In this document: positions 10,791 to 36,274 of the stretch, in pieces
How positions within the stretch are numbered: position 1 is the first letter of the stretch
How the letters are laid out: each line of letters starts with the position of its first letter
NCBI GenBank assembly: GCA_001508155.1
Contig: LGFI01000003.1
Coordinates: 1-64,000 of the forward strand
Source of the DNA: Acetothermia bacterium 64_32
GTDB lineage: Bacteria > Bipolaricaulota > Bipolaricaulia > Bipolaricaulales > Bipolaricaulaceae
Direction: 5' to 3'
DNA length: 64,000 nt
Made by a program: the position numbers and the translations under genes
The notes under the pieces: generated by a model
What the model saw: only the letters and a program-made list of their open reading frames with translations
What the model was told of the DNA's origin: nothing
The model's database searches: none

Positions 10791-11386
10791 CCCTCCCCCA
10801 CCTCAAACCGCACGAACCTCCGGATCACCACCGGCTCACCCAGCTTGGCCCCCAGATCGGCCAACAGGTCCTCCACCCTTGTCTTCCCTGAAGGGTCGCG
10901 GATATACGGCTGCTTAAGGAGACAGCTTTCCTCGTAGAACTTGGCAAGCCGCCCTTCCACGATCTTCTCCACGATGTGTGGAGGTTTTCCTTCCTTTTCA
11001 GCTTGCTTTTTCAGGATCTCCCGTTCCTCCGCGATTACCTCCTGCGGCACGTCCTCAGGCGAGATCCAGCGGGGCTTTGCGGCGGCGATCTGCATGGCCA
11101 GGTTGCGAACGAAGTCACGGAAATCCTGGGAGTTGGCGGCAAAATCAGTGTTGGTGTTAACCTCGACGAGCACCCCCACCTTGCCCGAGTGATGGACGTA
11201 GGCCTCTATCCTGCCTTCCTTGGCCTCCCGGGTCTGGTGGGCCAGGAACTCCTTCCCCTCGGTGCGCAGGATCTGCTTGGCCTTCTCCAGGTCCCCGCCC
11301 GCCTTGGTCAGGGCGGCCTTGCAGTCCATAATGCCCACCCCGGTCTCCTCCCGGAGGCGCTTGATCAAGTCCGTGGTGATCTCCAT
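10787..11386 (-). CDS. tsf: Translation elongation factor Ts
   Basis: 199 aa, the short form also found in Thermus and Thermotoga (the E. coli protein is about 283 aa). The N-terminal UBA-like domain (LIKRLREETGVGIMDCK) and the EF-Tu-contact region are present: KVGVLVEVNTNTDFAA, then DFVRNLAMQIAA and QPYIRDPSGKT. It recycles EF-Tu by GDP exchange. ATG abuts the rpsB stop. One core subdomain repeat is missing relative to enteric forms, as expected for the short family. Confidence 0.95.
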   Translation of the reverse strand: MEITTDLIKRLREETGVGIMDCKAALTKAGGDLEKAKQILRTEGKEFLAHQTREAKEGRIEAYVHHSGKVGVLVEVNTNTDFAANSQDFRDFVRNLAMQIAAAKPRWISPEDVPQEVIAEEREILKKQAEKEGKPPHIVEKIVEGRLAKFYEESCLLKQPYIRDPSGKTRVEDLLADLGAKLGEPVVIRRFVRFEVGEG

Positions 11387-12234: not shown

Positions 12235-12274
12235 GCTTCCTCCTCCTTTCCAAGACAGGGATTATGCGGGAGCA

Positions 12275-12303
12275 AGTATATCCGCCGGGGTGTCCGGCTA
12301 CAA
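12275..12303 (-). promoter_or_regulatory. Promoter of rpsB-tsf-pyrH
   Basis: On the minus strand: TTGTAG (12303-12298), 17-base spacer, TATACT (12280-12275). It lies 40 bases upstream of the rpsB TTG and leaves a leader carrying the ribosome site. It is divergent from the dnaB promoter. Confidence 0.6.
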
Positions 12304-12319
12304 AACGGGTCGGTTGTCC

Positions 12320-12349
12320 TTGGCCTGAAGGAGGGTGAGGGGATATGAT
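12320..12349 (+). promoter_or_regulatory. dnaB promoter, predicted to give a leaderless mRNA
   Basis: TTGGCC (12320-12325), 18-base spacer, TATGAT (12344-12349). The dnaB ATG follows only eight bases after the -10 box, so transcription should start at or next to the start codon. No ribosome site lies at a workable distance. Confidence 0.6.
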
Positions 12350-12357
12350 CTTTATCG

Positions 12358-13728
12358 ATGGCCGACGTCTTGGATGAGGGAATCAGGCCCATCCCTAAGA
12401 ACAAGGAGGCCGAGCAGGTGATCCTGGGGGCGGCCCTGCTTGAGCCCGAGGAGGCGGTTCCCCGGGTGGTGACCCGCCTGCGGCCCGAGCACTTCTACTT
12501 CAAGGCCCACCGGGAGATCTACCGGGCAATCGTGGAGCTTTTCAACCACGGCCAGCTCCCGGACGCGGTCACGGTGGCCAACTGGCTTGAGGAACACGAC
12601 AAGCTCGACGCCGTGGGGGGGCGGACTTATCTGCACGAGCTCTTGACCCGGGTGACCACCCTGGCGGCCCTGGATCACTACGTCGAGATCGTGGAGACCA
12701 AGGCCCTGCGGAGATGGTTGATCCAAGCCGGGGGACAGGTAGCGGAGCTCGGCTTCCGAGAGGAGCTGGACGTGGAGGAAGCCCTGGACCGGGCTGGTGA
12801 GCTCATCTTTGAGATCGCCCAGCGCCAGCAGAGCCCCGATTATCATCTCCTAAGCGACTTCCTCTATGAGCACCTGGATTTCCTTGAGGCCCTGCATAAG
12901 GACCCAGAGCGCCGCCCCCAAGGGGTGGTGTTCACCGGCTTCGAGCAGTTTGACGACCTCACCTCCGGCTTTCACGCAGCCGACCTGGTGGTGATCGCCG
13001 GCCGCCCGGGGACGGGCAAGACCTCGTTCGTCCTCTCGATCGCCCGGGATGCGGCCATCCGCCAGAAGAAGTCCGTGGGCATCTTCTCCTTGGAGATGAC
13101 AAAGGAACAGGTGCTGGAGCGGCTTCTCTGTGCGGAGGCCCAGGTCAACCTCCATTCCCTCCGCTCAGGGTATCTCCCCCCGGCCAAGTGGGGCCAGATC
13201 GCCGAGGCCGCCGGCCGCATCCACCAGGCCTCGATCCTGGTGGACGACACCCCCGGCGCGTCGGTCCTATCCATCAAGGCCAAGGCCCGTCGGATGGCCC
13301 TGGAGCACAAGCTGGACCTCCTGATCGTGGATTACCTGCAGCTCGTGGAAGCCGGGATCCGCACGGACGTGCGGGAACAGGAGATCGCCTACATCTCGCG
13401 GACCCTAAAGGGGTTGGCTCGGGAGCTCTCCATCCCGGTGATCGCCTGTTCCCAGCTCAATCGGGCGGTGGAGAGGAGGGAGTCCAAAAGGCCACAGCTT
13501 TCCGACCTGCGGGAGTCGGGGGCCATCGAGCAGGATGCGGACCTGGTGGCCTTTATCTACCGGCCGGACTACTATGAGGACCCCGATGGGTCCGGGCCGG
13601 TGGCGGAGGCCGAGGTCATCATCGCCAAGCAACGAAACGGCCCCACCGGGAAGGTGCGGCTCCTGTTCCACAAGGACTACGCCACCTTCTACTCGCCGGC
13701 ACGGCGGGCAGAGGAGGTGCCGTTCTAG
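12358..13728 (+). CDS. dnaB: Replicative DNA helicase
   Basis: 456 aa. Hexameric helicase that unwinds DNA at the fork. The N-terminal helical domain ([20 protein letters not shown]) is followed by a linker and a RecA-like domain with Walker [10 protein letters not shown] (about residues 216-224), [10 protein letters not shown], Walker B-like [12 protein letters not shown], and the C-terminal DNA-binding block [22 protein letters not shown]. No intein is present, and length matches the family. It is expressed from its own promoter, apparently as a leaderless message, divergent from rpsB. gcvH follows after 13 bases. Confidence 0.96.
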
Positions 13729-13741
13729 AAAGGAGGGGTTG

Positions 13742-14125
13742 GTGATCCCCGAAGGGCTGAGGTACACCAAGGACCACGAGTGGGCAAAGCCCGAGGACGG
13801 GACGGTTCGGGTGGGGATAACCCACCACGCCCAAAAGGAGCTCGGGGACATAGTGTTCGTGGAGCTCCCCGAGGTGGGAAGGACCGTAAGCAAAGGGGAG
13901 GAAGTTGCCACCGTGGAGTCGGTGAAGGCGGTGGGGGAGGTTTATGCCCCGGTCTCAGGGGAGGTGGTGGCCAGAAACGATGCCCTGGAGTCCTCCCCGG
14001 AGCTGGTGAACAAGGACCCCTACGGGGAGGGCTGGCTTTTCGTCCTCAAGATGGAAAACCCAGCGGAGCTGGATGAGCTCCTCGACGCGGCCGCCTACGA
14101 GAAACTGGTGGGAGGGGAAGGGTGA
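13742..14125 (+). CDS. gcvH: Glycine cleavage system H protein (lipoyl carrier)
   Basis: 127 aa from GTG at 13742, behind AAAGGAGGGG; the open frame runs back into dnaB, but that part has no H-protein similarity. [15 protein letters not shown] opens the family, and the lipoyl lysine sits in [18 protein letters not shown]. It shuttles the aminomethyl group between P, T and L proteins. It overlaps gcvPA by four bases (GTGA). gcvT, the dihydrolipoyl dehydrogenase gene and the lipoyl ligase genes are not in the window. Confidence 0.96.
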
Positions 14126-15459
14126 CGGAGTACATCCCCCACACCCCGGAGGACATCGAAGAGATGCTTTCGGCCATCGGCCTCAAGTCCCTGGAGGCCC
14201 TTTTTTCCGATATCCCGGAGGAGGTGCGGAGGCGGTACCGCCCCTTGGGGCTCCCCCGGGGGGACGAGGAGAAGGTCCGCCGCCACCTGGAGGGCCTTGC
14301 GAAGCGCTCCACCGGAAGGGGGCTCATCCCCTTCCTGGGCGGGGGGATCTACGACCACTTCGTGCCAGCCGTGGTGAACTACGTGATCTCCCTGCCGGGG
14401 TTTTACACCGCCTACACCCCCTACCAGCCCGAGGTCTCCCAGGGGACCCTCACCTGGATGTTCGAGTACCAGACGATGATCTGCGAGCTCACCGGGATGG
14501 AGGTGGCCAACTCCTCCATGTACGATGGGGCCACCGCCCTGGCCGAGGCGGCCCTCATGGCCCACCGCACGGTGGGCGGCCGCCGGGTGCTCGTCCCCAG
14601 GTCCCTGAACCCCCAGGTGCGGGAGGTGCTCGCCACCTACGCCTGGGGGGCGGGGCTCGAGCTCTTGGACGTCCCCTATAGCGAGGAGGGGAAGCTAGCG
14701 CTGGAGGGGGTCCCGGAGGGGCTCTGCGCCCTGGTCGTCCAGCAGCCCAACTTCTTCGGGGTCATCGAGGACCTTTCGGGGCTCAAGGAGCGCATCGGGA
14801 AGGCCTTCTTGATCGTTTACGTGAACCCAATTGCCCTGGGGGTGCTCGAGCCACCGGGGGCCTTTGGGGCCGATGTGGTGGTGGGGGAGGGGCAGGTGCT
14901 TGGGAACCCCATGGGCTTTGGGGGGCCGCTCCTCGGGATCTTCGCCACCAGGGGCGAGCACCTCCGGCGGATGCCGGGGCGCCTGGCCGGCAGGACGATG
15001 GACGCCGAGGGGAGGCCTGGGTACGTTATGGCCTTCCAGACCCGGGAGCAGCACATCCGCCGGGAACGGGCCACCTCCAACATCTGCACCAACTCCGCCC
15101 TTTGTGCCCTTGCAGCCACCGTGTACCTGGCCGCCCTGGGGCCGGAGGGCCTAAGGCGGGTGGCCCTGCTTTCCATCGAGCGGGCACACGATTTGGCAAG
15201 CAGGATCAAAATGCTTCCGGGTTACGAGCTCGCCTTCTCCAGGCCTTTCTTCAACGAATTCGCCGTGCGCTGTGCGGCCCCGGAGGAAGCGGTGGCCCGT
15301 CTCCGGGAGGCAGGCATCGCCGTCCTCCCCCCTGGGCTTGTGGCCAAAGCCGGGCTTGATGGGGCCTTCCTGGTGGCGGTTACGGAAAAGAGGACGGAGG
15401 AGGAGCTTTCCAGGTTCGTGGAGGCGCTGAAAGGGGAAGGCTATGGGGACGATCTATGA
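14122..15459 (+). CDS. gcvPA: Glycine dehydrogenase (decarboxylating) subunit 1
   Basis: 445 aa, GTG start overlapping gcvH. N-terminal half of the split P-protein, as found in thermophiles and Firmicutes. Family marks include [62 protein letters not shown] and [17 protein letters not shown]. It forms a heterotetramer with GcvPB to decarboxylate glycine. It overlaps gcvPB by 17 bases, so the two halves are coupled for balanced synthesis. Confidence 0.96.
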
Positions 15460-16888
15460 ATGTGGGGCCTCTGGCCGCAAGGGGACTTCCCTTCCCCCGC
15501 TCGGCCGGTCTGAAGAGGAAATACTCTCATTCATCCCAGAGGGGCTAAGGCGCAAGGCCCCCCCTTGGCTTCCAGAGGTCTCCCAGCCCGAACTCGTGCG
15601 ACACTACACTCGCCTTTCCCGGATGAACTACGGGGTGGACACTGGCTTTTACCCCTTGGGAAGCTGCACCATGAAGTACAACCCCAAGCTCCATGAGGAG
15701 CTCGCCCGGCTTCCGGGCTTCTCCGGCCTCCACCCCTTGCTCCCCGAGGAGGAGGTTCAAGGGGCGCTCGGAGTGCTGTGGGAGCTTTCGGAGTACCTGA
15801 AGGGGATCGCAGGGATGCCGGGGGTAACCCTGCAGCCGGCGGCGGGTGCCCATGGCGAGCTCACCGGGATGCTGCTCTTCAAGCGCTACTTCGAGGACCG
15901 GGAGGAGCTTGAAAAGCGCGTCAAGATCCTGCTCCCCGACTCCGCCCACGGCACGAACCCTGCTTCGGCCACCATGGCCGGTTTCAAGGTGGTTTCCATC
16001 CCCTCCGATGCTCGGGGGATGGTGGACCTGGCCGCCCTCAAGGCGGCCTTGGGGGAGGATGTGGCCGGGATCATGCTCACCGTGCCCAACACCTTGGGGA
16101 TCTTCGAGGAGGACATCCTGGAGATCACCCGGCTCGTCCACGAGGCCGGGGGGCTGTGCTATTTCGACGGGGCGAACCTGAACGCGTATCTTGGCCGTGC
16201 CCGACCCGGGGACATGGGCGCCGATGTGTTCCACTTCAATTTGCACAAGACCTTTTCCACCCCCCACGGCGGGGGAGGGCCGGGGGCAGGGCCGCTGGCC
16301 GTCTCCGAGCCTTTGGTCCCTTACCTCCCCTTGCCCCAAATCGTACGGCAGGGGAACCGGTACGCCCTGGACTGGGATCGCCCCAAGTCGATCGGCCGGG
16401 TCCATCCTTACTTTGGAAACTTCCTGGTCATGGTGAAGGCCCTGGCGTACATCTTGCTCCTTGGGGACGAGGGGCTGAGGGAGGTGTCCAACGGGGCGGT
16501 GCTGGCGGCAAACTACCTAAAGGAGAGGCTGAAGAAGACCTACAAGCTCCCCCACGATCGCCTGTGCAAGCACGAGTTCGTCCTGTCCGGGGAAGGCCTG
16601 GGGGAGGGCATAAGGACGCTGGATATCGCCAAGCGCCTCATCGACTACGGCTTTCATCCACCCACGATCTACTTTCCCCTGATCGTAAAGGAGGCGCTTA
16701 TGATCGAGCCCACCGAGACCGAGCCCAAGGAGGTCCTGGACGCCTTCTGTCAGGCTATGGAAGAGATCGCTCAAGAAGCGCAAAAGTCCCCGGAGCTTTT
16801 GAAGGAGGCGCCCCACCGGGCCCCGGTCCGGCGGCTGGACGAGGCCCGGGCAGTGCGCCAGCCCATCCTGCGGGAATCCCCCGCTTGA
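15443..16888 (+). CDS. gcvPB: Glycine dehydrogenase (decarboxylating) subunit 2
   Basis: 481 aa. PLP-carrying half of the split P-protein. The cofactor lysine lies in HFNLHKTFSTPHGGGGPGAG, and the conserved blocks FYPLGSCTMKYNPK, LQPAAGAHGELTG, DSAHGTNPASA and YFDGANLNAYLG are all visible. Together with GcvPA and GcvH it releases CO2 from glycine or, run in reverse, fixes CO2 into glycine. The C-terminal RAVRQPILRE tail is short. The gene ends at a TGA inside a candidate promoter for the next gene. Confidence 0.96.
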   Translation: MGTIYECGASGRKGTSLPPLGRSEEEILSFIPEGLRRKAPPWLPEVSQPELVRHYTRLSRMNYGVDTGFYPLGSCTMKYNPKLHEELARLPGFSGLHPLLPEEEVQGALGVLWELSEYLKGIAGMPGVTLQPAAGAHGELTGMLLFKRYFEDREELEKRVKILLPDSAHGTNPASATMAGFKVVSIPSDARGMVDLAALKAALGEDVAGIMLTVPNTLGIFEEDILEITRLVHEAGGLCYFDGANLNAYLGRARPGDMGADVFHFNLHKTFSTPHGGGGPGAGPLAVSEPLVPYLPLPQIVRQGNRYALDWDRPKSIGRVHPYFGNFLVMVKALAYILLLGDEGLREVSNGAVLAANYLKERLKKTYKLPHDRLCKHEFVLSGEGLGEGIRTLDIAKRLIDYGFHPPTIYFPLIVKEALMIEPTETEPKEVLDAFCQAMEEIAQEAQKSPELLKEAPHRAPVRRLDEARAVRQPILRESPA

Positions 16889-16914
16889 CGGGACACCCCT
16901 CGGGGCTGTAGCCT
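16885..16914 (+). promoter_or_regulatory. Candidate promoter of the secreted repeat protein gene
   Basis: TTGACG (16885-16890), 18-base spacer, TAGCCT (16909-16914). The -35 box overlaps the gcvPB stop codon. The next gene has a strong ribosome site (AAAGGAGG) downstream of it. Confidence 0.45.
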
Positions 16915-16932
16915 GGTCCAAAAGGAGGCACC

Positions 16933-17634
16933 ATGAGGTACGCAGCGCTGGTCGTCTGTATCCTGATAGGAATTGGGGCCGCTGGGGTCGCCCAACATCA
17001 GTATGCGTTTTACTACGACCTCTCCGGGGGACAAGATCTCGTGATAAACATGATGAATACCATGGAGGAAAGCTCCGCTTATCTGATAGAGGTCTATGAC
17101 GCTTGGGGGAACCTCTTGTGGCAGAAGACAGGGGAACTTGGAGCCTACGAGGCGGAGTTCTACAGGCTGGGGGAGTTTGTGGCCGCCGAGGAGATGAACT
17201 GGGGGGTGGTCACCCTGGCCTCCGAGCAGGAACTTGTGTTCGGGCTGGAGTACCTGGCGGGGGGAGAGCTCGCCTCCATAGACAACATCAGTCGGGAGGT
17301 CCCGGAAGTTGAGAGTGGGGTGCCCTACTGGCTGGGGGCCTACTACACTCAGGCGGAGGGCCTATCCACCGGGGTCATCATCATGAACCCGCATGCCGAG
17401 GCCACTTCGGTGAACGTCTCCCTTCGGAACCCCAACGGCGCCCTCCTCTACAGCCAAGACATAGACCTTGGTCCCCACGAGTCCGAATACCTTGACCTAG
17501 ACAAGCTCGTTGGCCAAGGGGGTTTGATCTGGGGCTTGGTAGACGTTCAGATGCAGGAAAAAGCGGTTGTAGTGGCCGTGGAGTACTACGGGGAACGGCT
17601 TGAGGTAGATAACATCACCGAGTACTACTTCTGA
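16933..17634 (+). CDS. Secreted protein of unknown function with two tandem homologous domains
   Basis: 233 aa, ATG behind AAAAGGAGG. Residues 1-20 are a signal peptide (AALVVCILIGIGAAGVA). The mature part consists of two similar stretches. The first (about 32-120) reads DLVINMMNTMEESSAYLIEV, then LLWQKTGELGAYEAEFYRL, then MNWGVVTLASEQELVFGLEY and SIDNI. The second (about 143-229) reads STGVIIMNPHAEATSVNVSL, then LLYSQDIDLGPHESEYLDL, then LIWGLVDVQMQEKAVVVAVEYY and VDNI. Each looks like a beta-sandwich. I do not recognise a named family. It stands alone between gcvPB and the convergent glmM, whose end it overlaps by 20 bases. It may be an extracellular or periplasmic binding or surface protein. 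Confidence 0.8.
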   Translation: MRYAALVVCILIGIGAAGVAQHQYAFYYDLSGGQDLVINMMNTMEESSAYLIEVYDAWGNLLWQKTGELGAYEAEFYRLGEFVAAEEMNWGVVTLASEQELVFGLEYLAGGELASIDNISREVPEVESGVPYWLGAYYTQAEGLSTGVIIMNPHAEATSVNVSLRNPNGALLYSQDIDLGPHESEYLDLDKLVGQGGLIWGLVDVQMQEKAVVVAVEYYGERLEVDNITEYYF

Positions 17635-18940
17635 AGCCGCTTTTTTCAAGGGCACATTCGATCGCCTCCACCGCCTGGTGGAGGCGATCCTCTTCTTCCC
17701 CTTCGGCCAGGATGCGGATCAAGGGCTGGGTCCCCGAGGGGCGGACGACCAGCCGCCCGCCCTTTCCCAGCATGGCCTTGGCCTCCTCGATCGCCTGCCT
17801 CACCTTGAGGTCCTCCAGGGCGCCTTTTCTGTCCACAACCGGGACGTCAACCCTCACCTGGGGGTAGACGGGAACCGGGGCTGCCAATGTGGCAAGATCC
17901 CTTTCCAATCTCTGGAGGGCGTGGAGGGTGAGGAGGGCGGTGAGGATCCCGTCCCCGGTGGGGGAAAACCGGGCGAACACGATGTGGCCGGAGGGCTCCC
18001 CGCCGAGCTGGATCCCCTCCTTTCGCATGGCCCAAGACACATGTCGATCCCCCACCGGCACCCGCACCACCTGGAAACCCTGTTCCTTCAGGTAGCGCTC
18101 TGCCCCCATGTTCGCAAGCACGGTGAATACCACCGCCCGGGGGGAGAGTTCCCCCAGCCGGTGGAGCTGGGGGGCCAGGGCGGCCATAAGCCGGTCCCCC
18201 TCCACCACCTGTCCCTGTCCGTCCACCAAGAGCGCCCGATCCCCGTCCCCGTCGAAGGCGACCCCCAAGTCCGCCCCCTCGGCCCGCACCAAGGCTTGAA
18301 GGGGCTCGGTGGCCGCCGCCCCGGTGGCGTTGATCCTGGTCCCGTCAAGTTCCCCCCCGATCACCGAAAGCCTCGCCCCCAGGGCCTCGAATACCCTGGG
18401 CGCCACCTTGGCGGTGGCCCCATGGGCGCAGTCCAGGGCGATCTTGAGCCCAGAGAGGGAAAGCCCCTCCACCGCCCGCAGGAGGAAGGATAGGTAGCTC
18501 TCCTCGGCCTCCGGCCAGGGGGCCACCCAGCCCAAGCGCTGACCCTCCGGCCGGCCATCCAGGAGCGCCTCCACCCGCTCCTCTTCCTGGGGGGATAGCT
18601 TCAGCCCCTGGGGATCGTAGAACTTGACGCCGTTATCTTCCGGGGGGTTATGGGAGGCCGAGATGACGGCCCCTAGCTCGAACCTCCCTTGGCGCACCAG
18701 GTGTGACACCGCCGGCGAGGGGAGTATCCCGGCCAGGCTCACCTCACAGCCCGCCTCGGCCAGGCCGGCAGCGCAGGCCGCCTCCAGGGCCGGCCCGGAG
18801 ACCCGGGTGTCCCGGGCCAGCAAGGCCCTCCTTGGGCTGAAGGCCCTCCCCGCCGCACGCCCCAGCCGGAACGCCAGCTCACAGGTGAGCTCCAGCCCCG
18901 CTACCCCCCGTACCCCATCCGTCCCGAAATACTTCGGCAT
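17615..18940 (-). CDS. glmM: Phosphoglucosamine mutase
   Basis: 441 aa. Interconverts glucosamine-6-P and glucosamine-1-P for cell-wall and lipopolysaccharide precursors. It begins MPKYFGTDGVRGVAGLEL and carries the phosphoserine loop ISASHNPPEDNGVKFY, the metal loop FDGDGDRALLVD, the sugar-binding GGEPSGHIVF and the phosphate-binding RPSGTQPLIRILAEG. The GTDGVRG start and length favour GlmM over phosphomannomutase. Its end overlaps the convergent secreted-protein gene by 20 bases. Confidence 0.94.
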   Translation of the reverse strand: MPKYFGTDGVRGVAGLELTCELAFRLGRAAGRAFSPRRALLARDTRVSGPALEAACAAGLAEAGCEVSLAGILPSPAVSHLVRQGRFELGAVISASHNPPEDNGVKFYDPQGLKLSPQEEERVEALLDGRPEGQRLGWVAPWPEAEESYLSFLLRAVEGLSLSGLKIALDCAHGATAKVAPRVFEALGARLSVIGGELDGTRINATGAAATEPLQALVRAEGADLGVAFDGDGDRALLVDGQGQVVEGDRLMAALAPQLHRLGELSPRAVVFTVLANMGAERYLKEQGFQVVRVPVGDRHVSWAMRKEGIQLGGEPSGHIVFARFSPTGDGILTALLTLHALQRLERDLATLAAPVPVYPQVRVDVPVVDRKGALEDLKVRQAIEEAKAMLGKGGRLVVRPSGTQPLIRILAEGEEEDRLHQAVEAIECALEKSGFRSSTR

Positions 18941-27607: not shown

Positions 27608-27730
27608 TTGTCTAAAAAGCAAGTTCGGGAGCCTTCGTTGGGGGAGCGGCTGCGCCGGCTGAGGAAGGCCAAGGGGCTTACCCTGGCGCAGCTTGCCGAG
27701 CGGGTGGGCAGGTCTGAGGCCTATCTTTGA
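27608..27730 (+). pseudogene. XRE-family regulator with cupin domain, N-terminal fragment (interrupted by an IS)
   Basis: TTG at 27608 behind CGGAGGAGAGAAG. Forty codons encode the first helices of an XRE helix-turn-helix (GERLRRLRKAKGLTLAQLAE RVGRSEAYL-like text), then a TGA formed at the insertion boundary. The remainder of the HTH and the cupin domain resume at 29528 on the far side of the IS1634-type element. Intact proteins of this kind are about 180-190 aa, equal to the sum of the two fragments. They usually control the adjacent amino-acid, polyamine or peptide operon. As it stands the gene cannot give a full-length product. Confidence 0.85.
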
Positions 27731-27749
27731 CACTTAGGCCTTCGATTTG
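27726..27749 (+). repeat. Left terminal inverted repeat of the IS1634-type element
   Basis: Begins TTTGACACT and ends GATTTG; the complementary right end is at 29503-29527. The outer nine bases match perfectly. Confidence 0.7.
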
Positions 27750-27837
27750 ATCCCTTCGGAGGGCTGAAGTGCCCAAGAGATGGCATCGATTCCCTCGCCC
27801 AACGGAAATTGTAGTGCCTAGAGATTTTCGGTATATC

Positions 27838-27866
27838 TTGACATCTAGCGATCAACATGCTATGAT
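27838..27866 (+). promoter_or_regulatory. Strong transposase promoter inside the IS (leaderless)
   Basis: Consensus TTGACA (27838-27843), 17-base spacer, TATGAT (27861-27866). The transposase ATG is nine bases after the -10 box, with no ribosome site, so the message is predicted to start at the ATG or within a few bases of it. Confidence 0.75.
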
Positions 27867-27875
27867 TCCTGTGCT

Positions 27876-29459
27876 ATGTATTTGAGGGTGAAAAGGTTCC
27901 GCAACAAGGACGGCTCGGTCAGGGAGTACCTGTACATCGTGAAGGGCGTGCGGGTGGATGGGAAGCCCCGCCAGAAGGTGGTGGCCTATCTTGGCCGCCT
28001 GGACGAGCTGCGGGAGGAAGGCGCCATTGACTCCCTGGTGGAGGGGCTTTCCCGCTACGCCGAGAGGGCAAAGGTGATGGATGTGGCCCAGGACCTTTTT
28101 TGCCACTCTGCCAAGGAGTACGGGCCGGCCTTGGTGTTCAAGCGGCTGTGGGAGGAGCTTGGGCTTGGGGAGTTCCTTACTAGGTACGTAGCCGAGCGGG
28201 GGTTTGAGTTCGATGTGGTGGCGGCCATCTACGCCATGGTGCTGAATCGTCTTTTGGCTCCCTGTTCCAAGCTGGGGGTGTCCCGGTGGATAGAGGAGGT
28301 GGAGGAGCCTTCTTTCAGGGGGCTTTCCCTGCATCACTTCTACCGGGCGCTGGACGTACTCTACGAGTACAAAGGAAGGCTTGAAGAGGATCTTTTCCGC
28401 AGGAGGCGGGATCTTTTCTCGCAAGAGGTAGACTTGGTGTTTTTCGACACCACCACGGTGTCGTTCCACGGTGAGGGGCCGGAGGGGCTAGCGGAGTACG
28501 GCTACTCACGGGACAGGCGTCCGGACTTAAAGCAGATCGTGGTGGCGGTGGCGATGACCAAGGGAGGGATGCCGATCGCACACGAGGTTTTCCCTGGGTC
28601 CACCTCCGATGTGCGGAGCTTTGCCCGGGTGATCGCTTCCTTGAAGGAGCGGTTTCCCATTGGGCGGGTGATCATGGTGTCGGACCGGGGGACGGTGAGT
28701 GAGGGGAACCTTTCGCTTCTTTCTGGGCTTGGGCTTTCCTACATCGTGGGGGTGAGGATGAGGCGGGTGCGGGAGGTGGGGGAGGAGGTACTTTCCCGGC
28801 CGGGCCGCTACCGGGAGGTGGCGGAGAACCTGAAGGTGAAGGAGGTCCGGCATGAGGGGAGAAGGTACATCGTGTGCCTGAACGAGGAGGAGGCTGAAAG
28901 GGAAAGAAAAGCCCGGGAGGAGATGGTGGAAAAGCTCCGGGAGAAGCTAGCCCGGGGTGGAGTGAAGAGTTTGGTGGGCAACCGGGGCTACCGGAGGTAC
29001 CTGAATGTCAAGGGGGCAGAGGCGGAGATCGATGAGGAGGCGCTCGAGCGGGAGGCCCGCTACGACGGCAAATACGTGCTTTTGACCGACAGCGACCTTC
29101 CGGCGGAGGAGGTGGCGCTGGCGTACAAGGGGCTGTGGCAGGTGGAGGCGGCGTTCCGGGAGCTGAAGGACCAGCTTGAGCTGGGACCGATCTACCACTG
29201 GACCGAGCCCAGAGTGCGGGCGCATGTGGCCGTGTGTTTCCTGGCTTTCCTTCTTGAGGTGGAGTTTGAGCGGCGGCTTTCTGAGCTTGGGGTAGAAGTG
29301 AGCTTCCGGGAGGTGCTTTCGGATCTTAGGCGGGTGAAGGCGGTACACCTTGAGGTGAAGGGCAAGCCCTATCTTGCACGCACCGAGCTTTCCGGGCAGG
29401 CGTACCAGGGATTCCGGGCAGCCGGGGTAGCGGTGCCGCCCCGGGTGGTGGAGCTGTAG
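27876..29459 (+). CDS. IS1634-family transposase (IS4 superfamily, DDE type)
   Basis: 527 aa, intact reading frame. It begins MYLRVKRFRNKDGSVREYLY, typical of IS1634. Catalytic-core landmarks are DLVFFDTTTVSFHGEG with the first Asp, YGYSRDRRPDLKQIVVAVAM, GMPIAHEVFPGSTSDVRSFA, VIMVSDRGTVSEGNLSLL with the second Asp, and the YREK-like block containing the Glu (LWQVEAAFRELKDQLELGPI YHW). Because the frame is open and the promoter strong, the element may be active. Base and codon use resemble the host, suggesting long residence or a related source. Confidence 0.92.
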   Translation: MYLRVKRFRNKDGSVREYLYIVKGVRVDGKPRQKVVAYLGRLDELREEGAIDSLVEGLSRYAERAKVMDVAQDLFCHSAKEYGPALVFKRLWEELGLGEFLTRYVAERGFEFDVVAAIYAMVLNRLLAPCSKLGVSRWIEEVEEPSFRGLSLHHFYRALDVLYEYKGRLEEDLFRRRRDLFSQEVDLVFFDTTTVSFHGEGPEGLAEYGYSRDRRPDLKQIVVAVAMTKGGMPIAHEVFPGSTSDVRSFARVIASLKERFPIGRVIMVSDRGTVSEGNLSLLSGLGLSYIVGVRMRRVREVGEEVLSRPGRYREVAENLKVKEVRHEGRRYIVCLNEEEAERERKAREEMVEKLREKLARGGVKSLVGNRGYRRYLNVKGAEAEIDEEALEREARYDGKYVLLTDSDLPAEEVALAYKGLWQVEAAFRELKDQLELGPIYHWTEPRVRAHVAVCFLAFLLEVEFERRLSELGVEVSFREVLSDLRRVKAVHLEVKGKPYLARTELSGQAYQGFRAAGVAVPPRVVEL

Positions 29460-29502
29460 TGGGTACGTCTGCCTATTAGCCGTTGAAACGCTGGTTCCAA
29501 GG

Positions 29503-29527
29503 CAAATCTCTGTCCCACAGTGTCAAA
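29503..29527 (-). repeat. Right terminal inverted repeat of the IS1634-type element
   Basis: Read on the minus strand it begins TTTGACACT and contains GATTTG 19 bases further in, pairing with 27726-27749. Confidence 0.7.
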
Positions 29528-29987
29528 CTTGGGTGAGGGTTATCTCAGCCGGCTGGAGAGGGGGCAGGTGAACCCCTCTTTAAGCACGCTAAAGAGGATT
29601 GCGGACGTTTTGGGGAGGCCGGTGGTGCAGCTTTTGGATGATGTGGTATTGCCCTTGGCGCGGGCGGCGCAGGATGGGGGGCACAGGCGGCTTGTCGTCT
29701 CCCCTGAGCTGGAGTACGTGATCCTGTCGGCGCCCAACGACCGGTTTGCTCTTTTTAAGGTGATTCTGGCAAAAGGGGGAACGAGTGGGGAGGAGCCTTA
29801 CTGTCATGAGGGGCTTGAGGCCGGGATTGTCCTTAAAGGGAAGGTGCGGATCACGGTGGGCGGGAAGAGCTTTGTGCTTGGGGCAGGGGACAGCATAACT
29901 TATAGGTCGGATCTACCCCACCGGTTTGAGAACGTGGGGGAGGAGGAGGCGATAGGGATCTGGGTGGTAAGCCCTCCCACCTTTTAG
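29528..29987 (+). pseudogene. XRE-family regulator with cupin domain, C-terminal fragment
   Basis: Continuation of the gene broken at 27730: YLSRLERGQVNPSLSTLKRI completes the helix-turn-helix, followed by ADVLGRPVVQLLDD and a cupin domain (GGTSGEEPYCHEGLEAGIVL KGKV, then GDSITYRSDLPHRFENVGEE and IGIWVVSPPTF). The cupin probably senses a small ligand. A GTG at 29520 inside the IS end could permit translation of this fragment (155 aa), which would keep the cupin but lack the first HTH helices. It lies 67 bases before the ABC importer operon it probably controlled. Confidence 0.85.
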
Positions 29988-30054
29988 GGAAGGAGGTGAT
30001 AGCTGAAGCAATTCTTAAAGCAAAAACATCTTAAATTCTGCGGAGGTGATGACT

Positions 30055-31638
30055 TTGAAAAGGAAATTGGTTTTTGTGATTCTGTTTTTGACGACGATTG
30101 CGGCCGTAGGGCTCGGCTACGAGGTTGTGGACGGCAAGATCCACATCGTATATGCCGCCCGCCAGCCGGTGGAGAACCTGGACCCAAGCATCCATTATGA
30201 CTGGTCTACCCGGAACCTTCAGCAGTCGGTATACGATGCCCTGCTTAAGTACGTGGGCGATCCGCCAACCCTTGAGCCCTGGCTGGCGGAGAAGTGGGAG
30301 GGTTCTCCGGACGCCACGGTGTGGACGTTCCACCTGGTAAAGAACGCCCGCTTCCACAACGGGGATCCGGTGACCGCTGAGGCGGTGAAGTTCTCGTTCG
30401 AACGGACTCTCACGCTGAAACAAGGGCCGGCTTGGATGTTGCTCGATGTCCTCGATCCTTCCGGAATAGAAATCGTGGATGATTACACAATCAGATTCCA
30501 CCTAAATGAACCGTACGCTCCGTTCCCCTCGGTAGTGCCCTGGTGGTACATCATGAATCCCAACGAGGTCATGGCCCACGAGGTGGACGGCGACTACGGC
30601 CAAGGATGGCTGCAGGACCACGAGGCGGGCTCGGGCCCCTTCGTCATCAAGGAGTGGAAGCACGGGGAGTACTACTGGCTCGAAGCCTGGGACGAATACT
30701 GGAAGGGGTGGCCAAATCCTGACCATATCGGTGGATTCATCTTCAAGCTCGTCCGTGAGGCGGCTACCCAAAGGATGATGATTGAGTCCGGTGAGGCGGA
30801 CATCGTAGAGGGGGTAACGCCGCGCGACTTTGATGAACTAGCGAAAACTCCGGGCATCTATGTGCCCGAGTACCCCGGGATGACCACGTTTGGCATCAAG
30901 ATGAACACCCAGAAGGGCATGACGGCGAACCCCATGATCCGGAAAGCGATCTGTTACGCGTTTGACTACGATGCCCTCATAGACATCTACGAAGGCCACG
31001 CAGTGCTTGAAGACAGCCCGTTCCCCATGGCCACGAAGGGGCACGTGGACCTGTCCCAGTGGATCTACCGTCAGGACCTGGCCAAGGCCAAGGAGTTCAT
31101 GGCCAGGGCCGGGTACCCGGACGGGGGCTTTGAGCTGGAGTACGTGTACGTGGCCGGGCTTGAGGAAGAGCGCCTGATCGGGCTTGCCCTCCAAAGCTCA
31201 CTGGCGCAGATCGGGATCAAGGTAAATCTGGTGCCGCTCATCTGGCCTCAGATGGTGGAGCGGGGCTCAAAGCCGGAGACCTCTCCGGACATGATGGCCG
31301 TGTTCACCACGCCGATCTCTAACGATCCCGATGCTGTGGCCATTCAGTACCATCCCATGTCCGCCGGGCGGTATTACTACTCCCACTGGTACTCGAATCC
31401 TCGCGTGACCTATTTGGTGGAACAGGCACGGAGCATCTCCGACTGGGATGCCCGGGCCAAGATGTATGATGAGATCCAGCGGATCGTCCTTTACGATGCC
31501 CCAGAGGTTTTCGGGATGCTGTACAACCGCCGGTGGGCACTGCGGGACTACGTGCAAGGGTTCCGGTTCTGCCCAGTGCGGATGACTTCTGAAATCGACA
31601 TGTACACTCTTTATATCGACAAGTCCAAGCTGCCCTGA
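30055..31638 (+). CDS. Oligopeptide/dipeptide-type ABC transporter substrate-binding protein (family 5)
   Basis: 527 aa from TTG at 30055: GGAGGTG (30042-30048) lies six bases before it, whereas ATG 30049 and GTG 30046 overlap that site. A signal peptide (RKLVFVILFLTTIAAVGLG) precedes a family 5 binding protein: LDPSIHYDWSTRNLQQSVYD, LAEKWEGSPDATVWTFHLVK, ARFHNGDPVTAEAVKFSFER (the family signature), GSGPFVIKEWKHGEYYWLEA and MNTQKGMTANPMIRKAICYA. It captures a peptide-like or other amphipathic ligand in the periplasm. A hairpin follows the stop, then the two permease genes. The presence of DUF917, DUF1177 and AroM downstream suggests a substrate other than ordinary peptides. Confidence 0.92.
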   Translation: MKRKLVFVILFLTTIAAVGLGYEVVDGKIHIVYAARQPVENLDPSIHYDWSTRNLQQSVYDALLKYVGDPPTLEPWLAEKWEGSPDATVWTFHLVKNARFHNGDPVTAEAVKFSFERTLTLKQGPAWMLLDVLDPSGIEIVDDYTIRFHLNEPYAPFPSVVPWWYIMNPNEVMAHEVDGDYGQGWLQDHEAGSGPFVIKEWKHGEYYWLEAWDEYWKGWPNPDHIGGFIFKLVREAATQRMMIESGEADIVEGVTPRDFDELAKTPGIYVPEYPGMTTFGIKMNTQKGMTANPMIRKAICYAFDYDALIDIYEGHAVLEDSPFPMATKGHVDLSQWIYRQDLAKAKEFMARAGYPDGGFELEYVYVAGLEEERLIGLALQSSLAQIGIKVNLVPLIWPQMVERGSKPETSPDMMAVFTTPISNDPDAVAIQYHPMSAGRYYYSHWYSNPRVTYLVEQARSISDWDARAKMYDEIQRIVLYDAPEVFGMLYNRRWALRDYVQGFRFCPVRMTSEIDMYTLYIDKSKLP

Positions 31639-31650
31639 TTTGAGAGACTA

Positions 31651-31675
31651 GGGGGCTGTCCGCCGGGCAGCCCCC
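31651..31675 (+). promoter_or_regulatory. Intercistronic hairpin between binding-protein and permease genes
   Basis: GGGGGCTG (31651-31658), nine-base loop, CAGCCCCC (31668-31675), followed by TTTCT. It could act as a partial terminator or 3' stabiliser, giving more binding protein than permease. It lies 12 bases before the permease ATG. Confidence 0.7.
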
Positions 31676-31687
31676 TTTCTGCTTGCC

Positions 31688-32698
31688 ATGCTGGCGTACA
31701 TCGTACGGCGACTGTTTTTCCTGGCCTTGACACTGCTCGGCCTGTCTGTGGTGACCTTCTTCATCTCCCGGGTTGTGCCCTCAGATCCCGCTCGGCTTGC
31801 GGCCGGCCCTTACGCAACCGATGAGATGGTACAGAAGATTCGACAGGAATTCGGGCTGGATAAGCCGCTTGCCGTGCAATACTGGAATTACATATCTGGG
31901 ATCTTCCGGGGCGACTTTGGTCGGTCTATACGGACCCGCCGCCCGGTATCCCAGGACCTGGGGCGTTTCTACCCAGCGACATTGGAGCTAGTCCTCTTTT
32001 CACTTGTGGTTTTCGGTGCCATTCCCGGGGTAACGCTTGGCGTACTGTCCGCATACTATCACGATCGGTGGGTGGATCAACTGGTCCGGCCTATCTCCAT
32101 CATTGGCCTTGGTCTTCCGGGATTTTGGCTAGCGTTGATGTTGCAGTCGTTGATCGCGTCCAAGCTGGGCCTGCTTCCCGTGGGGGGGAGGCTGTCCCTT
32201 GGGTTAAGCTCGCCCATGTCCATCACCCACTTCTTCTTGATCGACAGCCTCGTCACGGGGAACGGCCGCGCCTTCCTCGACGCCCTCAAGCATATCCTGC
32301 TTCCTTCCATTTCCCTTGCTTTCCCAGCGTTTGCTTCGATCACCCGGCTGACGCGGGCCGAAGCACTTGACGTCCTCAATGCAGACTACGTCCGGACTGC
32401 TTGGGCTAAGGGTGTAAGCGGCCGGTGGGTGCTGTGGCGACACATCCTGCGAAATGCGCTGATCCCCACCACTACCATGATCGGCCTTCGGTTTGGCTGG
32501 ATGCTAGGGGGCACGATTATGGTGGAGACGGTTTTCAACTGGCCCGGGTTAGGCCTATATGCCGTTCAGGCGGCTACGTTTTCCGACTTCAACGCCATCA
32601 TGGGGGTTACGCTGCTCATAGGGCTGAACTTCGGAGTAGCTAACCTGATCGTGGATCTCCTATACGGAGTGCTCGACCCACGGATTCGCTATGAGTGA
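31688..32698 (+). CDS. ABC transporter permease, DppB/OppB type
   Basis: 336 aa. It begins MLAYIVRRLFFLALTLLGLS, the standard DppB opening, with SVVTFFISRVVPSDPARLAA and EFGLDKPLAVQYWNYISGIF next. About six membrane segments and the ATPase-contact loop (TRAEALDVLNADYVRTAWAK GVSG) are visible, and it ends with FGVANLIVDLLYGVLDPRIR Y. With DppC-type protein it forms the inner-membrane channel. The stop overlaps the DppC gene by eight bases. Confidence 0.93.
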   Translation: MLAYIVRRLFFLALTLLGLSVVTFFISRVVPSDPARLAAGPYATDEMVQKIRQEFGLDKPLAVQYWNYISGIFRGDFGRSIRTRRPVSQDLGRFYPATLELVLFSLVVFGAIPGVTLGVLSAYYHDRWVDQLVRPISIIGLGLPGFWLALMLQSLIASKLGLLPVGGRLSLGLSSPMSITHFFLIDSLVTGNGRAFLDALKHILLPSISLAFPAFASITRLTRAEALDVLNADYVRTAWAKGVSGRWVLWRHILRNALIPTTTMIGLRFGWMLGGTIMVETVFNWPGLGLYAVQAATFSDFNAIMGVTLLIGLNFGVANLIVDLLYGVLDPRIRYE

Positions 32699-33593
32699 TC
32701 TCAGGGGGATGAAGACGATCAAAGGACGCTCGGCCACTGAAACGCGCCGGGTGATGCGCGTGTTCTTGCGTAATCCACTTTCGATCCTAGGCATGAGCAT
32801 GGTAATTGCCTTTTTCGTCCTGGCAGCGTTCGCGCCCCTGCTCGTCCCGTATCCGGAAGATGTGAGTGGGGCAATCCATATGAAGCAGCGTCATCTCCCG
32901 CCGAGCTCTGAACATTGGTTCGGCACGGATGAGGTGGGGAGGGACCTGTTCAGCCGCGTCATCTATGGAACTCGGATTTCGCTGGAGATCGGGCTAATCG
33001 TGGTCGCGGTTGGAGCGGGGATCGGGGTCCCCTTGGGCCTTGTGGCCGGCTTCTTCGGGGGCTGGACGGAGCAAGTGATTATGAGGATTACGGATATCTT
33101 CCTTGCGGTACCTGGAATTCTACTAGCCATTGCCATTGTGGCGGCGCTCGGGCCCGGGATGACCAACGCCATGGTGGCGCTATCCATAGTCTGGTGGCCA
33201 GGATATGTACGCATCGTTCACGGGAAAGTGAAGACCGTGAGGGAGGAAGCCTACGTGGAGGCGGGCCGGGCGCTAGGGCTCAATTCCATGAGGATCCTGT
33301 TTCGTCATGTGCTGCCAAACTGCATGTCCCCCATCTTGGTCAAGGCCTCCATGGACATGGGGATGGCCATCTTGTCGGCGGCGGGCCTAGGGTTCATCGG
33401 GATCGGTGCCCAGCCGCCGATTCCGGAATGGGGTGCGATCATCAGTGAAGGCCGTCGATACTTTTCGGTAGCATGGTGGCACAGCACGTTTCCCGGACTT
33501 GCCATCTGGTTCACGGTGCTCGGGTTCAACTTCTTGGGGGATGCGCTTAGGGATGCGCTGGATCCCAAGATGCGGATGCAAGCCCTGAGCTAA
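32691..33593 (+). CDS. ABC transporter permease, DppC/OppC type
   Basis: 300 aa. The DppC pattern is plain: a cytoplasmic start, FLRNPLSILGMSMVIAFFVL, HWFGTDEVGRDLFSRVIYGT, LEIGLIVVAVGAGIGVPLGL, the coupling loop VREEAYVEAGRALGLNSMRI, and the closing LGDALRDALDPKMR. The partner ATPases DppD/DppF are not encoded in this locus. Instead a DUF917 gene follows 12 bases later, which suggests the operon is specialised. Confidence 0.93.
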   Translation: MSDLRGMKTIKGRSATETRRVMRVFLRNPLSILGMSMVIAFFVLAAFAPLLVPYPEDVSGAIHMKQRHLPPSSEHWFGTDEVGRDLFSRVIYGTRISLEIGLIVVAVGAGIGVPLGLVAGFFGGWTEQVIMRITDIFLAVPGILLAIAIVAALGPGMTNAMVALSIVWWPGYVRIVHGKVKTVREEAYVEAGRALGLNSMRILFRHVLPNCMSPILVKASMDMGMAILSAAGLGFIGIGAQPPIPEWGAIISEGRRYFSVAWWHSTFPGLAIWFTVLGFNFLGDALRDALDPKMRMQALS

Positions 33594-33605
33594 AAGGAGG
33601 GAGAC

Positions 33606-34676
33606 TTGGAACTGACCGAATCAACGGTTCAGGCGTTGGCGGTGGGGGGAGCTGTCCTCGGTGGGGGCGGAGGAGGGGCACTCTCCGAAGGTCTGGAGGT
33701 AGGTAAGCTTGCGCTTGCCTTAGGAACACCAAGGTTGGTTGAGCTAGATGAGCTTCAACCGGAAGACCTGGTGGTCACTGTCGCAGCCGTGGGCGCCCCG
33801 GCTGCGAAGGAAGCGTATGTGAAGCCTGTGGACTACGTCCACGCCGTGGAATTTCTCCTTCAGCTTCTCGACGAGCCCGTGGCAGGGTTGATCACCAATG
33901 AGATGGGGGGATTGGCCTCCGTAAACGGACTCCTCCAGTCCGCTCTGCTCGGCATCCCGGTTGTGGACGCCCCATGTAACGGCCGTGCACACCCTATATC
34001 GCTTATGGGGGCCATGGGGCTCCATCGTCTAGAGAGTTACCGCTCTGTGCAGGCTGCCTGTGGGGGTGAGCCGGCACGCCGGCGGCGTGTGGAACTGGTA
34101 GTCCTGGGGGATCTGGACCGCTGCTCCCGACTGGTCCGAGAGGCCTCGGTCCAGGCAGGAGGGGTGGTTGCAGTGGCGCGCAATCCGGTGCGTGCGGACT
34201 ACTTGGTCCAGAATGCGGCCGTGGGGGCGATGAGGGACGCGATTGCGCTCGGCGAGCTCATACTAGGGGCTGCTCCTGGCGATGAGGTGGAAATGCAGGT
34301 TGCTCGCAAGCTTGGTGGAGAAGTAGTGGCGCGGGGACGCGTCTCGGGGATGGAACTCACCACCGTGGGGGGGTTCGACGTGGGGCAAGTTTGGGTCGAG
34401 GGTGGGTGCGAGCTCGTGTTCTGGAACGAGTACATGCTCCTTGAGCGGGCGGGAAAGCGGCTATTCACCTTTCCTGACCTCATCGCTACCTTCGATGCCG
34501 ATTCCCACCTCCCGGTGACCAGCGCTGAAGTCCGTGAAGGGATGGAAGTGGTTGTAGTAGCCACACACAAGGAGAACCTGAAGCTGGGTGCGGGGATGCG
34601 TGATCAGGACCTGTTCGCCCGGATCGAAGAGGCTATCGCCAGGCCCATCGTGCCCTACGTCTTTGGAAAGAGGTGA
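33606..34676 (+). CDS. DUF917 family protein
   Basis: 356 aa from TTG at 33606 behind AAAAGGAGGGAGAC. The glycine-rich AVLGGGGGGALSEGLEVGKL near the start, VTVAAVGAPAAKEAYVKP and LITNEMGGLASVNGLLQSAL match the DUF917 family; the C-terminal part has GRVSGMELTTVGGFDVGQVW and MVVVVATHKENLKL-like text. Family members are often annotated as hydantoinase-related or S-methyl thiohydantoin desulfurase proteins, and their reaction is mostly unproven. Position after the importer genes and before DUF1177 and aroM-like genes suggests it processes the imported compound. Confidence 0.85.
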   Translation: MELTESTVQALAVGGAVLGGGGGGALSEGLEVGKLALALGTPRLVELDELQPEDLVVTVAAVGAPAAKEAYVKPVDYVHAVEFLLQLLDEPVAGLITNEMGGLASVNGLLQSALLGIPVVDAPCNGRAHPISLMGAMGLHRLESYRSVQAACGGEPARRRRVELVVLGDLDRCSRLVREASVQAGGVVAVARNPVRADYLVQNAAVGAMRDAIALGELILGAAPGDEVEMQVARKLGGEVVARGRVSGMELTTVGGFDVGQVWVEGGCELVFWNEYMLLERAGKRLFTFPDLIATFDADSHLPVTSAEVREGMEVVVVATHKENLKLGAGMRDQDLFARIEEAIARPIVPYVFGKR

Positions 34677-34682
34677 TCAAAG

Positions 34683-35618
34683 GTGTTGCGAGAAGTCGTG
34701 GAGGCCATGGAGTTGCTGGAGGGGGCGGATGCAGGTAGCCAGGCCACCCGGGAGTGGCTCCGCACCTTCGGCCTCCAGGAAGACGAGATCCAGGTCACCC
34801 AAATAGAAGGGGAAAAGGGGACGACCGAGTTCATCAAGGTGACCATCTCACCCGAAGGGGCCACGGGGCCAACCCTGGGGATCATCGGCCGCCTGGGCGG
34901 GGTCGGCGCCCGCCCCCACAAGCTGGGCCTCGTCTCCGACGCCGACGGGGCCATCGTGGCCCTGGCCTGCGCCGCCAAGCTCGCCCGCATGCGCGCCCGC
35001 GGCGACCTTCTCCCCGGAACCGTGATCATCTCCACCCACATCTGCCCCCACGCCCCCATCATCCCCCATGACCCCACCCCCTTCATGGGGGCCCCGGTGG
35101 ACATGGCCGCCATGAACCGCTACGAGGTGGACCCCAGGATGGAGGCCATCCTGTCCATCGATGCCACCAAAGGGAACTGGATCTTAAACCGGAGGGGTTT
35201 TGCCATTACGCCTACGGTCAAAGAGGGCTACATCCTCAGGGTGAGCCCCGACCTCCTTGAGATCATGCGCTTCGTGGCAGGCGAGCCCCCGGCGGTGCTC
35301 CCCATCACCACCCAGGACATCACCCCCTACGGGAATGGCCTTTACCACATAAACAGCATCATGCAGCCGGCCTGCGCCACCTCCGCCCCAGTAGTGGGGG
35401 TGGCCACCTGCGCCTCCACCCCCATCCCGGGCTGCGCCACCGGGGCCAACCACCCCCTGTCCCTGGAGCAGGCGGCCCGGTTCTGTGTCGAGGTGGCCAA
35501 GGCCTTCAGCAGGGGTGAGTGCAGCTTCTATGATCCAGAGGAATTTCGGAAACTTGTCAGCCTGTATGGATCGATGCGCCATCTGCAGACCTTGGGGAAG
35601 CAGGGAGGGGATCGATGA
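34683..35618 (+). CDS. DUF1177 family protein
   Basis: 311 aa from GTG at 34683. LREVVEAMELLEGADAGSQA, GIIGRLGGVGARPHKLGLVS DADGAI, TVIISTHICPHAPIIPHDPT and PFMGAPVDMAAMNRYEVD are characteristic of DUF1177. Near the C-terminus there are several cysteines in PACATSAPVVGVATCASTPI PGCATG, possibly catalytic or metal-binding. The HICPHAP block with two His and a Cys could also bind metal. No reaction is established for the family. It overlaps the aroM-like gene by four bases (ATGA), so the two are likely made together. Confidence 0.85.
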   Translation: MLREVVEAMELLEGADAGSQATREWLRTFGLQEDEIQVTQIEGEKGTTEFIKVTISPEGATGPTLGIIGRLGGVGARPHKLGLVSDADGAIVALACAAKLARMRARGDLLPGTVIISTHICPHAPIIPHDPTPFMGAPVDMAAMNRYEVDPRMEAILSIDATKGNWILNRRGFAITPTVKEGYILRVSPDLLEIMRFVAGEPPAVLPITTQDITPYGNGLYHINSIMQPACATSAPVVGVATCASTPIPGCATGANHPLSLEQAARFCVEVAKAFSRGECSFYDPEEFRKLVSLYGSMRHLQTLGKQGGDR

Positions 35619-36274
35619 GGCGGCTTGGTCTTATAACGATCGGGCAAAGCCCCCGGGACGATGTGGTCCCGGAGCTAAAGACCCTCCTCCCCAAAGACGT
35701 GACCATCGTCGAGGCCGGGGCCCTCGACGGGCTTTCCAGGGAGGAGATACCGCCTCCGCAAGCCCCGGAAAGGACCCTGGTCACCCGCATGTCCGATGGG
35801 ACCGAGCTTGCAGTGGACAGGGAGTTCATCCACCCCCGACTTGAGGGGGCGGTTCGCGCCCTGGAAGCCAGCGCAGACCTCATCGCCTACTTGTGCTCAG
35901 GGGACCTCCCGGACTTCCCCGCCCGGGTCCCCCTCCTAATCCCCTACCGCCTGCTGGAGGGGTACCTGAAGGCGGTCAGGTTCCCGGGCCCCATCGGGTT
36001 ATTGGTCCCGGCCCCCGCACAAGTGAAGCCCGCCTTGGAGGAACTGGAGTCCTGGGGGATCCCCGCCCTGGGGCAGGCGATCTCCCCTTACTCCCAGGCC
36101 CCCAAGGTGGGGGAGGCAGCCGCGCAGCTTGCCAGGAAGGGGGCGGTGGCCATCCTCCTTCACTGTTTCGGATTCAGCCTCGCCATGCGGGAGCAAGCGG
36201 CCCGGGCCTCGGGGCTCCCGGTGATCTCCGTCCGCAGCCTGCTTGCCCGAGCGCTCTCCGAGCTTTTGGCTTGA
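35615..36274 (+). CDS. AroM family protein (racemase-like fold)
   Basis: 219 aa. RRLGLITIGQSPRDDVVPEL is the AroM signature, followed by VEAGALDGLSREEI. Two cysteines occupy positions expected for the acid/base pair of Asp/Glu/hydantoin racemases: Cys94 in AYLCSGDLPDF and Cys184 in ILLHCFGFSLA, the latter followed by LPVISVRSLLARALSELL. E. coli AroM has no known function. The arrangement here supports an enzyme acting on an amino acid or hydantoin-like compound. Last gene of the importer operon. Confidence 0.85.
   Translation: MRRLGLITIGQSPRDDVVPELKTLLPKDVTIVEAGALDGLSREEIPPPQAPERTLVTRMSDGTELAVDREFIHPRLEGAVRALEASADLIAYLCSGDLPDFPARVPLLIPYRLLEGYLKAVRFPGPIGLLVPAPAQVKPALEELESWGIPALGQAISPYSQAPKVGEAAAQLARKGAVAILLHCFGFSLAMREQAARASGLPVISVRSLLARALSELLA

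Follow-up and report, generated by a model that had tools for sequence, protein, structure and literature searches.

The window analysed here, a 64,000-nucleotide stretch of contig LGFI01000003.1 from Acetothermia bacterium 64_32 (Bipolaricaulota), carries an operon of six genes that encode a family 5 substrate-binding protein (SBP), the permeases DppB and DppC, and the proteins DUF917, DUF1177 and AroM. The best explanation, which we advance tentatively, is that this operon is one version of a mobile cassette with DUF1177 and AroM as its core, which would take up a cyclic-amide (hydantoin-type) amino-acid derivative, invert its stereochemistry and hydrolyse it stepwise. The six-gene arrangement is not a product of chance, because unrelated bacteria and archaea share the order DUF917-DUF1177-AroM, and DUF1177 and AroM co-occur within the phylum. 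All six genes lie on the + strand, and each scored above its own Pfam cut-off. The SBP gene (30046-31638; PF00496 (SBP_bac_5), 275 bits) encodes a protein with a signal peptide, could alternatively start at a TTG at 30055, and attained no specific NCBIfam equivalog. Between it and dppB lies a hairpin on the same strand (31650-31676) of 12 pairs with a T-rich tail (z = -2.1), and then follow the genes of the DppB-type permease (31688-32698; PF00528, PF19300), the DppC-type permease (32691-33593; PF00528, PF12911), the DUF917 (S-Me-THD-like) enzyme (33606-34676; PF06032/PF20906, 82 and 87 bits), DUF1177 (34683-35618; PF06675, 421 bits) and AroM, a cofactor-independent racemase-fold protein (35615-36274; PF07302, 189 bits, and a weak PF01177 match). 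From the SBP gene to the AroM gene, the successive spacings are 49 bp (holding the hairpin), an 8 bp overlap, 12 bp, 6 bp and a 4 bp overlap. An earlier note on this stretch had claimed six closely packed same-strand genes and a hairpin; gene calls and Pfam matches bore out the places and spacing, and the hairpin is real.

The same note had taken the genes for a functional unit, and a check on co-occurrence in other genomes, set beforehand, found the linkage conserved. Of 100 genomes of the phylum, 17 carry DUF1177, 19 carry a strong AroM and 14 carry the two together (Fisher p = 1.5e-10, indicative only as the test ignores relatedness), and DUF1177 was likewise associated with DUF917 (p = 8e-6, again ignoring relatedness). 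A scan of GTDB species genomes yielded 246 DUF1177 relatives, and the best 80 of these fell in Bipolaricaulota, Chloroflexota, Thermotogota, Bacillota, Aminicenantes, Spirochaetes, Pseudomonadota and several archaeal groups. These best matches, the phylum set and plasmid loci were combined and near-copies removed, which gave 80 non-redundant DUF1177 loci that represent the best-matching part of the family and are not a random sample. Same-strand neighbours in these 80 loci included AroM (44), DUF917 (25), a Dpp permease or SBP (23), an Asp/Glu/hydantoin racemase (18), an M29-like protein (10) and an M20 protein (9); counting near-copies too, the gap to DUF1177 was at most 150 bp for AroM in 39 loci and for DUF917 in 27. 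Supportively, the DUF917-DUF1177-AroM order repeats in unrelated bacteria and archaea, and public annotation places the gene set in Salinigranum, Klebsiella, Sodalis and Paenibacillus; no DUF1177 was found in the phage collection. The gene set is widespread in bacteria and archaea and looks real. In two loci a gene is split across two reading frames, DUF1177 in L047 and DUF917 in L034, by a frameshift of decay or an assembly error.

Three layouts were observed within the phylum, the first being that of the window. In the second (L036, L037, L038 and L040), an Asp/Glu racemase follows the regulator and an M20 protein of the ArgE/DapE type occupies the DUF917 slot, and in the third (L032, L043 and L045), DUF917-DUF1177 precedes the transporter, with DppD/F in L032. 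The window SBP shares 61-62% identity with those of L043 and L045 and only ~24% with those of the second layout, while the window DUF1177 shares 71-76% identity with the DUF1177 of the second layout. L045 also carries two tandem DUF917 genes upstream of DUF1177 (7693-9863). In some of the nine loci with M20, this protein takes the DUF917 slot, and DUF917 and M20 occurred together in 0 of the 80 loci; because only ~2.8 joint loci would be expected from 25 and 9, this mutual exclusion is suggestive, not strong. An M20 amidohydrolase may thus stand in where DUF917 is absent; the M20 proteins tested comprised two ArgE/DapE deacylases and one hydantoinase/carbamoylase-family amidase above cut-off. 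The transporter varies as well: OPT is present in the cassettes of KSB1, Chromobacterium, Pantoea, Klebsiella and Sodalis, and NCS1, the family of hydantoin and allantoin permeases, replaces Dpp in those of Aminicenantes and others. Since the transporters vary (Dpp, OPT, NCS1), DUF1177-AroM looks like the constant core of the cassette. On the conjugative Klebsiella pneumoniae plasmid pRHB26-C08_2 (L130), an IclR-OPT-DUF1177-AroM-PepE-racemase cassette lies between transposases.

DUF1177 and AroM have no proven reaction, as the earlier note held; DUF917, which it grouped with them, no longer lacks a named one, since NCBIfam holds thiohydantoin and S-methyl-thiohydantoin desulfurase equivalogs, whose literature origin was not found in an open-access search for ergothioneine with desulfurase, thiohydantoin or hydantoin. 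The genome holds five DUF917 copies. That of the operon scored 297 bits against a cut-off of 440 with the thiohydantoin desulfurase model NF058529 and 263 bits against 450 with NF058532; the former model gave 250-297 bits for all DUF1177-linked DUF917 tested, against 55-86 bits for the remaining four in the genome. With both scores below the equivalog cut-offs, the operon protein was not assigned as a thiohydantoin desulfurase proper. In a tree of 37 DUF917 proteins, 26 of them DUF1177-linked, a branch of length 1.0 with 100/100 support groups 23 of these 26 with 5 of 5 from ergothioneine-type clusters, and the HyuA-type DUF917 fall on its other side; the two subclades within the desulfurase-side clade are less well separated (89/81 and 90/85). 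Residues D121, R127, N274, E275 and D291 are conserved in every or almost every member, and N107, Q149, R192, D258, R285 and T288 are confined to the desulfurase-side clade, the operon copy included. Judged from its sequence, the operon DUF917 thus groups, as a sister, with the thiohydantoin desulfurases that serve ergothioneine breakdown and not with the HyuA-linked DUF917. The ergothioneine-type sister genes adjoin genes for urocanate hydratase, an amidohydrolase, a Zn-dependent hydrolase and an ammonia-lyase. Putative clusters of this type, with urocanate hydratase, DUF917 and an amidohydrolase, were observed on four plasmids (L136, L138, L139 and L141), with a Zn-dependent hydrolase in the first three and unlisted in L141, and an aromatic ammonia-lyase also in L138. 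A different DUF917 type occurs in L048 (G000:C27:111001-130114, 10079-18559), where HyuA, DUF917, an Xaa-Pro dipeptidase-like protein, a further DUF917, a proline racemase-like protein and a 2Fe-2S/FAD oxidoreductase form a row resembling a catabolic cluster of the proline or hydroxyproline type.

In AroM, Cys94 and Cys184 were present in 56 of 56 sequences, and two cysteines are expected of the two-base racemases of the Asp/Glu/hydantoin superfamily. These residues mark AroM as a putative two-cysteine racemase-fold protein, and a structural likeness of AroM to this superfamily is reported in a published study (PMC11055893). For DUF1177, AlphaFold2 models were built from 10 sequences (pLDDT 79) and from 62 sequences (pLDDT 88), and for both models the top Foldseek matches in the PDB were M17 leucyl aminopeptidases (E about 1e-8 and 1e-9; best E 8.5e-10, prob 1.00). 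The model shares 10-14% identity with these aminopeptidases at TM-scores (TMq) of 0.51-0.58, which denote likeness at the level of the fold only. Comparison of DUF1177 with four M17 proteins detected no sequence-profile similarity (hhalign probability 3%), so that the DUF1177-M17 link is one of fold. DUF1177 is accordingly only predicted to have an M17-aminopeptidase-like hydrolase fold. Its invariant residues D86, D88, D160, D212 and H222 and nearly invariant residues H119, C121 and H129 are candidate metal or catalytic residues. The sole PDB matches by sequence search were designed 'Cake' propeller proteins, which were dismissed as spurious because no stretch passed alone.

Of the parts of a Dpp/Opp importer, SBP5, DppB and DppC are present in the operon by Pfam, and no DppD/DppF ATPase genes were found in it. 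Family searches of the source genome (from a metagenome; 1.81 Mb, 92% complete) counted only 7 DppD/F pairs, each adjoining permeases of its own, against 21 DppB-type permease genes and 23 family 5 binding proteins. Because the pairs are far fewer than the DppB-type genes, most Dpp permease sets in this genome have no private ATPase, and the simplest view is that they share one in trans. Related cassettes of Thermotogae, Chloroflexota, Enterococcus, Vagococcus and Haloferax do carry DppD/F; Haloferax, a laboratory genus amenable to genetics, has DppBCDF with DUF917, DUF1177, AroM and an M29-like gene. The absence of DppD/F from the operon, pointed out by the earlier note, was confirmed, but given these counts and relatives it is no argument against a plain peptide importer. 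The same genome holds a second operon (L049; G000:C10:11001-31000, 7876-14295) of DUF917, an Asp/Glu racemase, SBP5, DppB, DppC and DUF917; the genes that follow include no DppD/F. It is a parallel system that lacks both DUF1177 and AroM.

In the proposed pathway, the SBP with DppB and DppC would import a small, peptide-like cyclic-amide amino-acid derivative with a hydantoin-type ring, powered by a DppD/F pair from another locus of the genome. AroM would invert the acidic alpha carbon through its two cysteines, DUF917 would attack the five-membered ring at its C2-like carbon, in the manner of its sisters, the thiohydantoin desulfurases, and DUF1177, being metal-hydrolase-like, would cut the remaining amide to leave an ordinary amino acid for fermentation. 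Hydantoin-type chemistry, the guess of the earlier note, is a sensible one given the sister relation of DUF917 and the two-cysteine fold of AroM. Several observations weigh against this pathway. The operon contains no hydantoinase or carbamoylase, no carbamoylase above cut-off was found genome-wide, and the genome's dihydropyrimidinase-like protein is near threshold (380 of 393 bits) and unlinked to the operon, so that a classical Hyu route is not evident. The operon DUF917 has Glu99 where most ergothioneine-type members have Gln and, as it also lies under both desulfurase cut-offs, may catalyse a different reaction from theirs. The resemblance of DUF1177 to M17, confined to the fold, adds to this. 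No same-strand AroM, DUF917 or racemase match lay within 4 kb in 29 of 65 loci, in part because contigs are short. Finally, the PepE, M29-like and PepQ peptidases and the OPT transporters of sister cassettes point equally to linear peptides.

This last observation leads to the strongest alternative, which is nearly as likely as the cyclic-amide pathway because peptidases and peptide transporters recur in the sister cassettes: linear peptides with D-, beta-linked or N-acylated residues would be imported, DUF917 or M20 would unblock them, DUF1177 would act as an aminopeptidase or dipeptidase, and AroM and the other racemase would convert the released D-amino acids. Dpp and OPT are both peptide transporters, peptidases (PepE, M29-like and PepQ) and ArgE/DapE deacylases recur near DUF1177, and DUF1177 is predicted to fold like an M17 aminopeptidase, all of which agree with such a substrate; the sister relation of the DUF917 clade to the ring-acting thiohydantoin desulfurases does not, and the NCS1 permeases of some cassettes are not peptide transporters. 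In another alternative, cyclic dipeptides (diketopiperazines) would be imported by Dpp, epimerised by AroM, opened by DUF917 and cleaved as dipeptides by DUF1177. Genes for DUF917, AroM, a hydantoin racemase, Dpp ABC and OPT are enriched around cyclodipeptide oxidases, according to the published study (PMC11055893, Nat Commun 2024). However, no cyclodipeptide oxidase was seen among the classified neighbours of DUF1177, in which no dedicated-model search was made, and we regard diketopiperazine catabolism as unlikely.

It is less probable still that the operon serves as a branch in the breakdown of ergothioneine or thiohydantoin-propionate, even with a DUF917 sister to thiohydantoin desulfurases and one urocanase-family protein in the genome, because the marker genes of that route are lacking: no (thio)urocanate hydratase was found in the operon, and neither urocanate hydratase nor ammonia-lyase was identified beside DUF1177 in the loci examined. 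The sub-cut-off scores of DUF917 and a genome with no carbamoylase above cut-off also speak against it. The genome's urocanase-family protein lies near a contig end (L153; G000:C31:86501-97673), ~3 kb from an SBP5/DppB set. The least credible account, to which we give very little weight, is an ordinary peptide importer placed by chance beside unrelated enzymes; the transporter type does vary and the window permeases resemble many Dpp paralogues of the genome, but the close spacing and the recurrence of DUF917-DUF1177-AroM with Dpp across Bacteria and Archaea weigh against it.

Upstream of the operon, the broken XRE-cupin regulator claimed by the earlier note was recovered, with its halves flanking an insertion sequence (IS) of the IS1634 family. 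All three features are on the + strand. Intact relatives are ~180 residues long, and tblastn with them located the N-terminal, helix-turn-helix (HTH) half at 27608-27727 (58-62% identity over the first 31-40 residues to the relatives in L036, L037 and L040); the C-terminal fragment, with the HTH end and the cupin domain (29526-29987; Cupin_2, partial HTH_3), is 59-63% identical to them. The IS1634-family element that splits the regulator (27727-29527; transposase 27876-29459, NF033559, 431 bits against a cut-off of 100) has 9-bp inverted ends, TTTGACACT / AGTGTCAAA; no clean target-site duplication was found, its flanks showing a diverged overlap only. XRE-cupin genes are also found in sister operons of Bipolaricaulota and Thermotogae, and the regulator therefore belongs to the system. 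The XRE-cupin protein would thus be a former local regulator, and because the element breaks it, the operon is probably deregulated in this genome. A promoter-like site in the element (27838-27866) is oriented towards the operon, which makes readthrough into the operon possible. An rsmI-like gene at 36302, 3′ of AroM, is probably unrelated.

DUF1177 and AroM are annotated in many genomes without a proven reaction. As a conserved core to which exchangeable transporters and an exchangeable third enzyme (DUF917 or M20) are added, they bring three proteins of obscure function together in a single pathway that can be tested. The kinship of DUF917 to a named desulfurase, together with this core, confines the search for a substrate to cyclic amides derived from amino acids and to peptides of unusual kinds. 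More speculatively, DUF1177 could represent a hitherto unrecognised family of amide hydrolases that depend on metal and have an M17-like fold. Together with the racemase-like AroM it would then form the heart of a horizontally mobile pathway, as yet undescribed, by which many bacteria and archaea feed on a widespread natural compound, either a cyclic amide or a stereo-inverted peptide. The earlier suggestion of an undescribed pathway held in part: clustering of DUF917 and AroM with Dpp or OPT had been published in 2024 (PMC11055893), but the partnership with DUF1177 was not found in the open-access papers searched, of which none contained both DUF917 and DUF1177 and the sole one naming DUF1177 concerned another family. 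The DUF917/M20 alternation, the DUF917 clade placement and the predicted DUF1177 fold were likewise not found in the literature searched.

Compared with known systems, the operon and its relatives resemble the cyclodipeptide-oxidase clusters (PMC11055893) in bringing together DUF917, AroM, a PF01177 racemase, Dpp ABC, OPT and peptidases; they differ in DUF1177, which goes unmentioned in the available part of that study, where no activity is given for DUF917 or AroM, and in that no cyclodipeptide oxidase was identified here. With the ergothioneine/thiohydantoin clusters (NF058529, NF058532; ErtE N-carbamyl-L-glutamate amidohydrolase, NF058540), the operon shares the major DUF917 clade and its clade-specific residues, whereas those clusters contain urocanate hydratase, an amidohydrolase, a Zn-dependent hydrolase and sometimes an ammonia-lyase, and neither DUF1177 nor AroM in the stretches examined. 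Like the Hyu pathway of racemase, hydantoinase and carbamoylase, the system combines a racemase-fold protein, amide hydrolases and an importer, and an M20 of the carbamoylase family or an NCS1 permease accompanies DUF1177 in some loci, but this operon has no hydantoinase or carbamoylase. The OPT-DUF1177-AroM-PepE-racemase cassettes of Klebsiella and Sodalis plasmids have the same DUF1177-AroM core beside a transporter, with a racemase in addition, and carry OPT and PepE in place of Dpp and DUF917.

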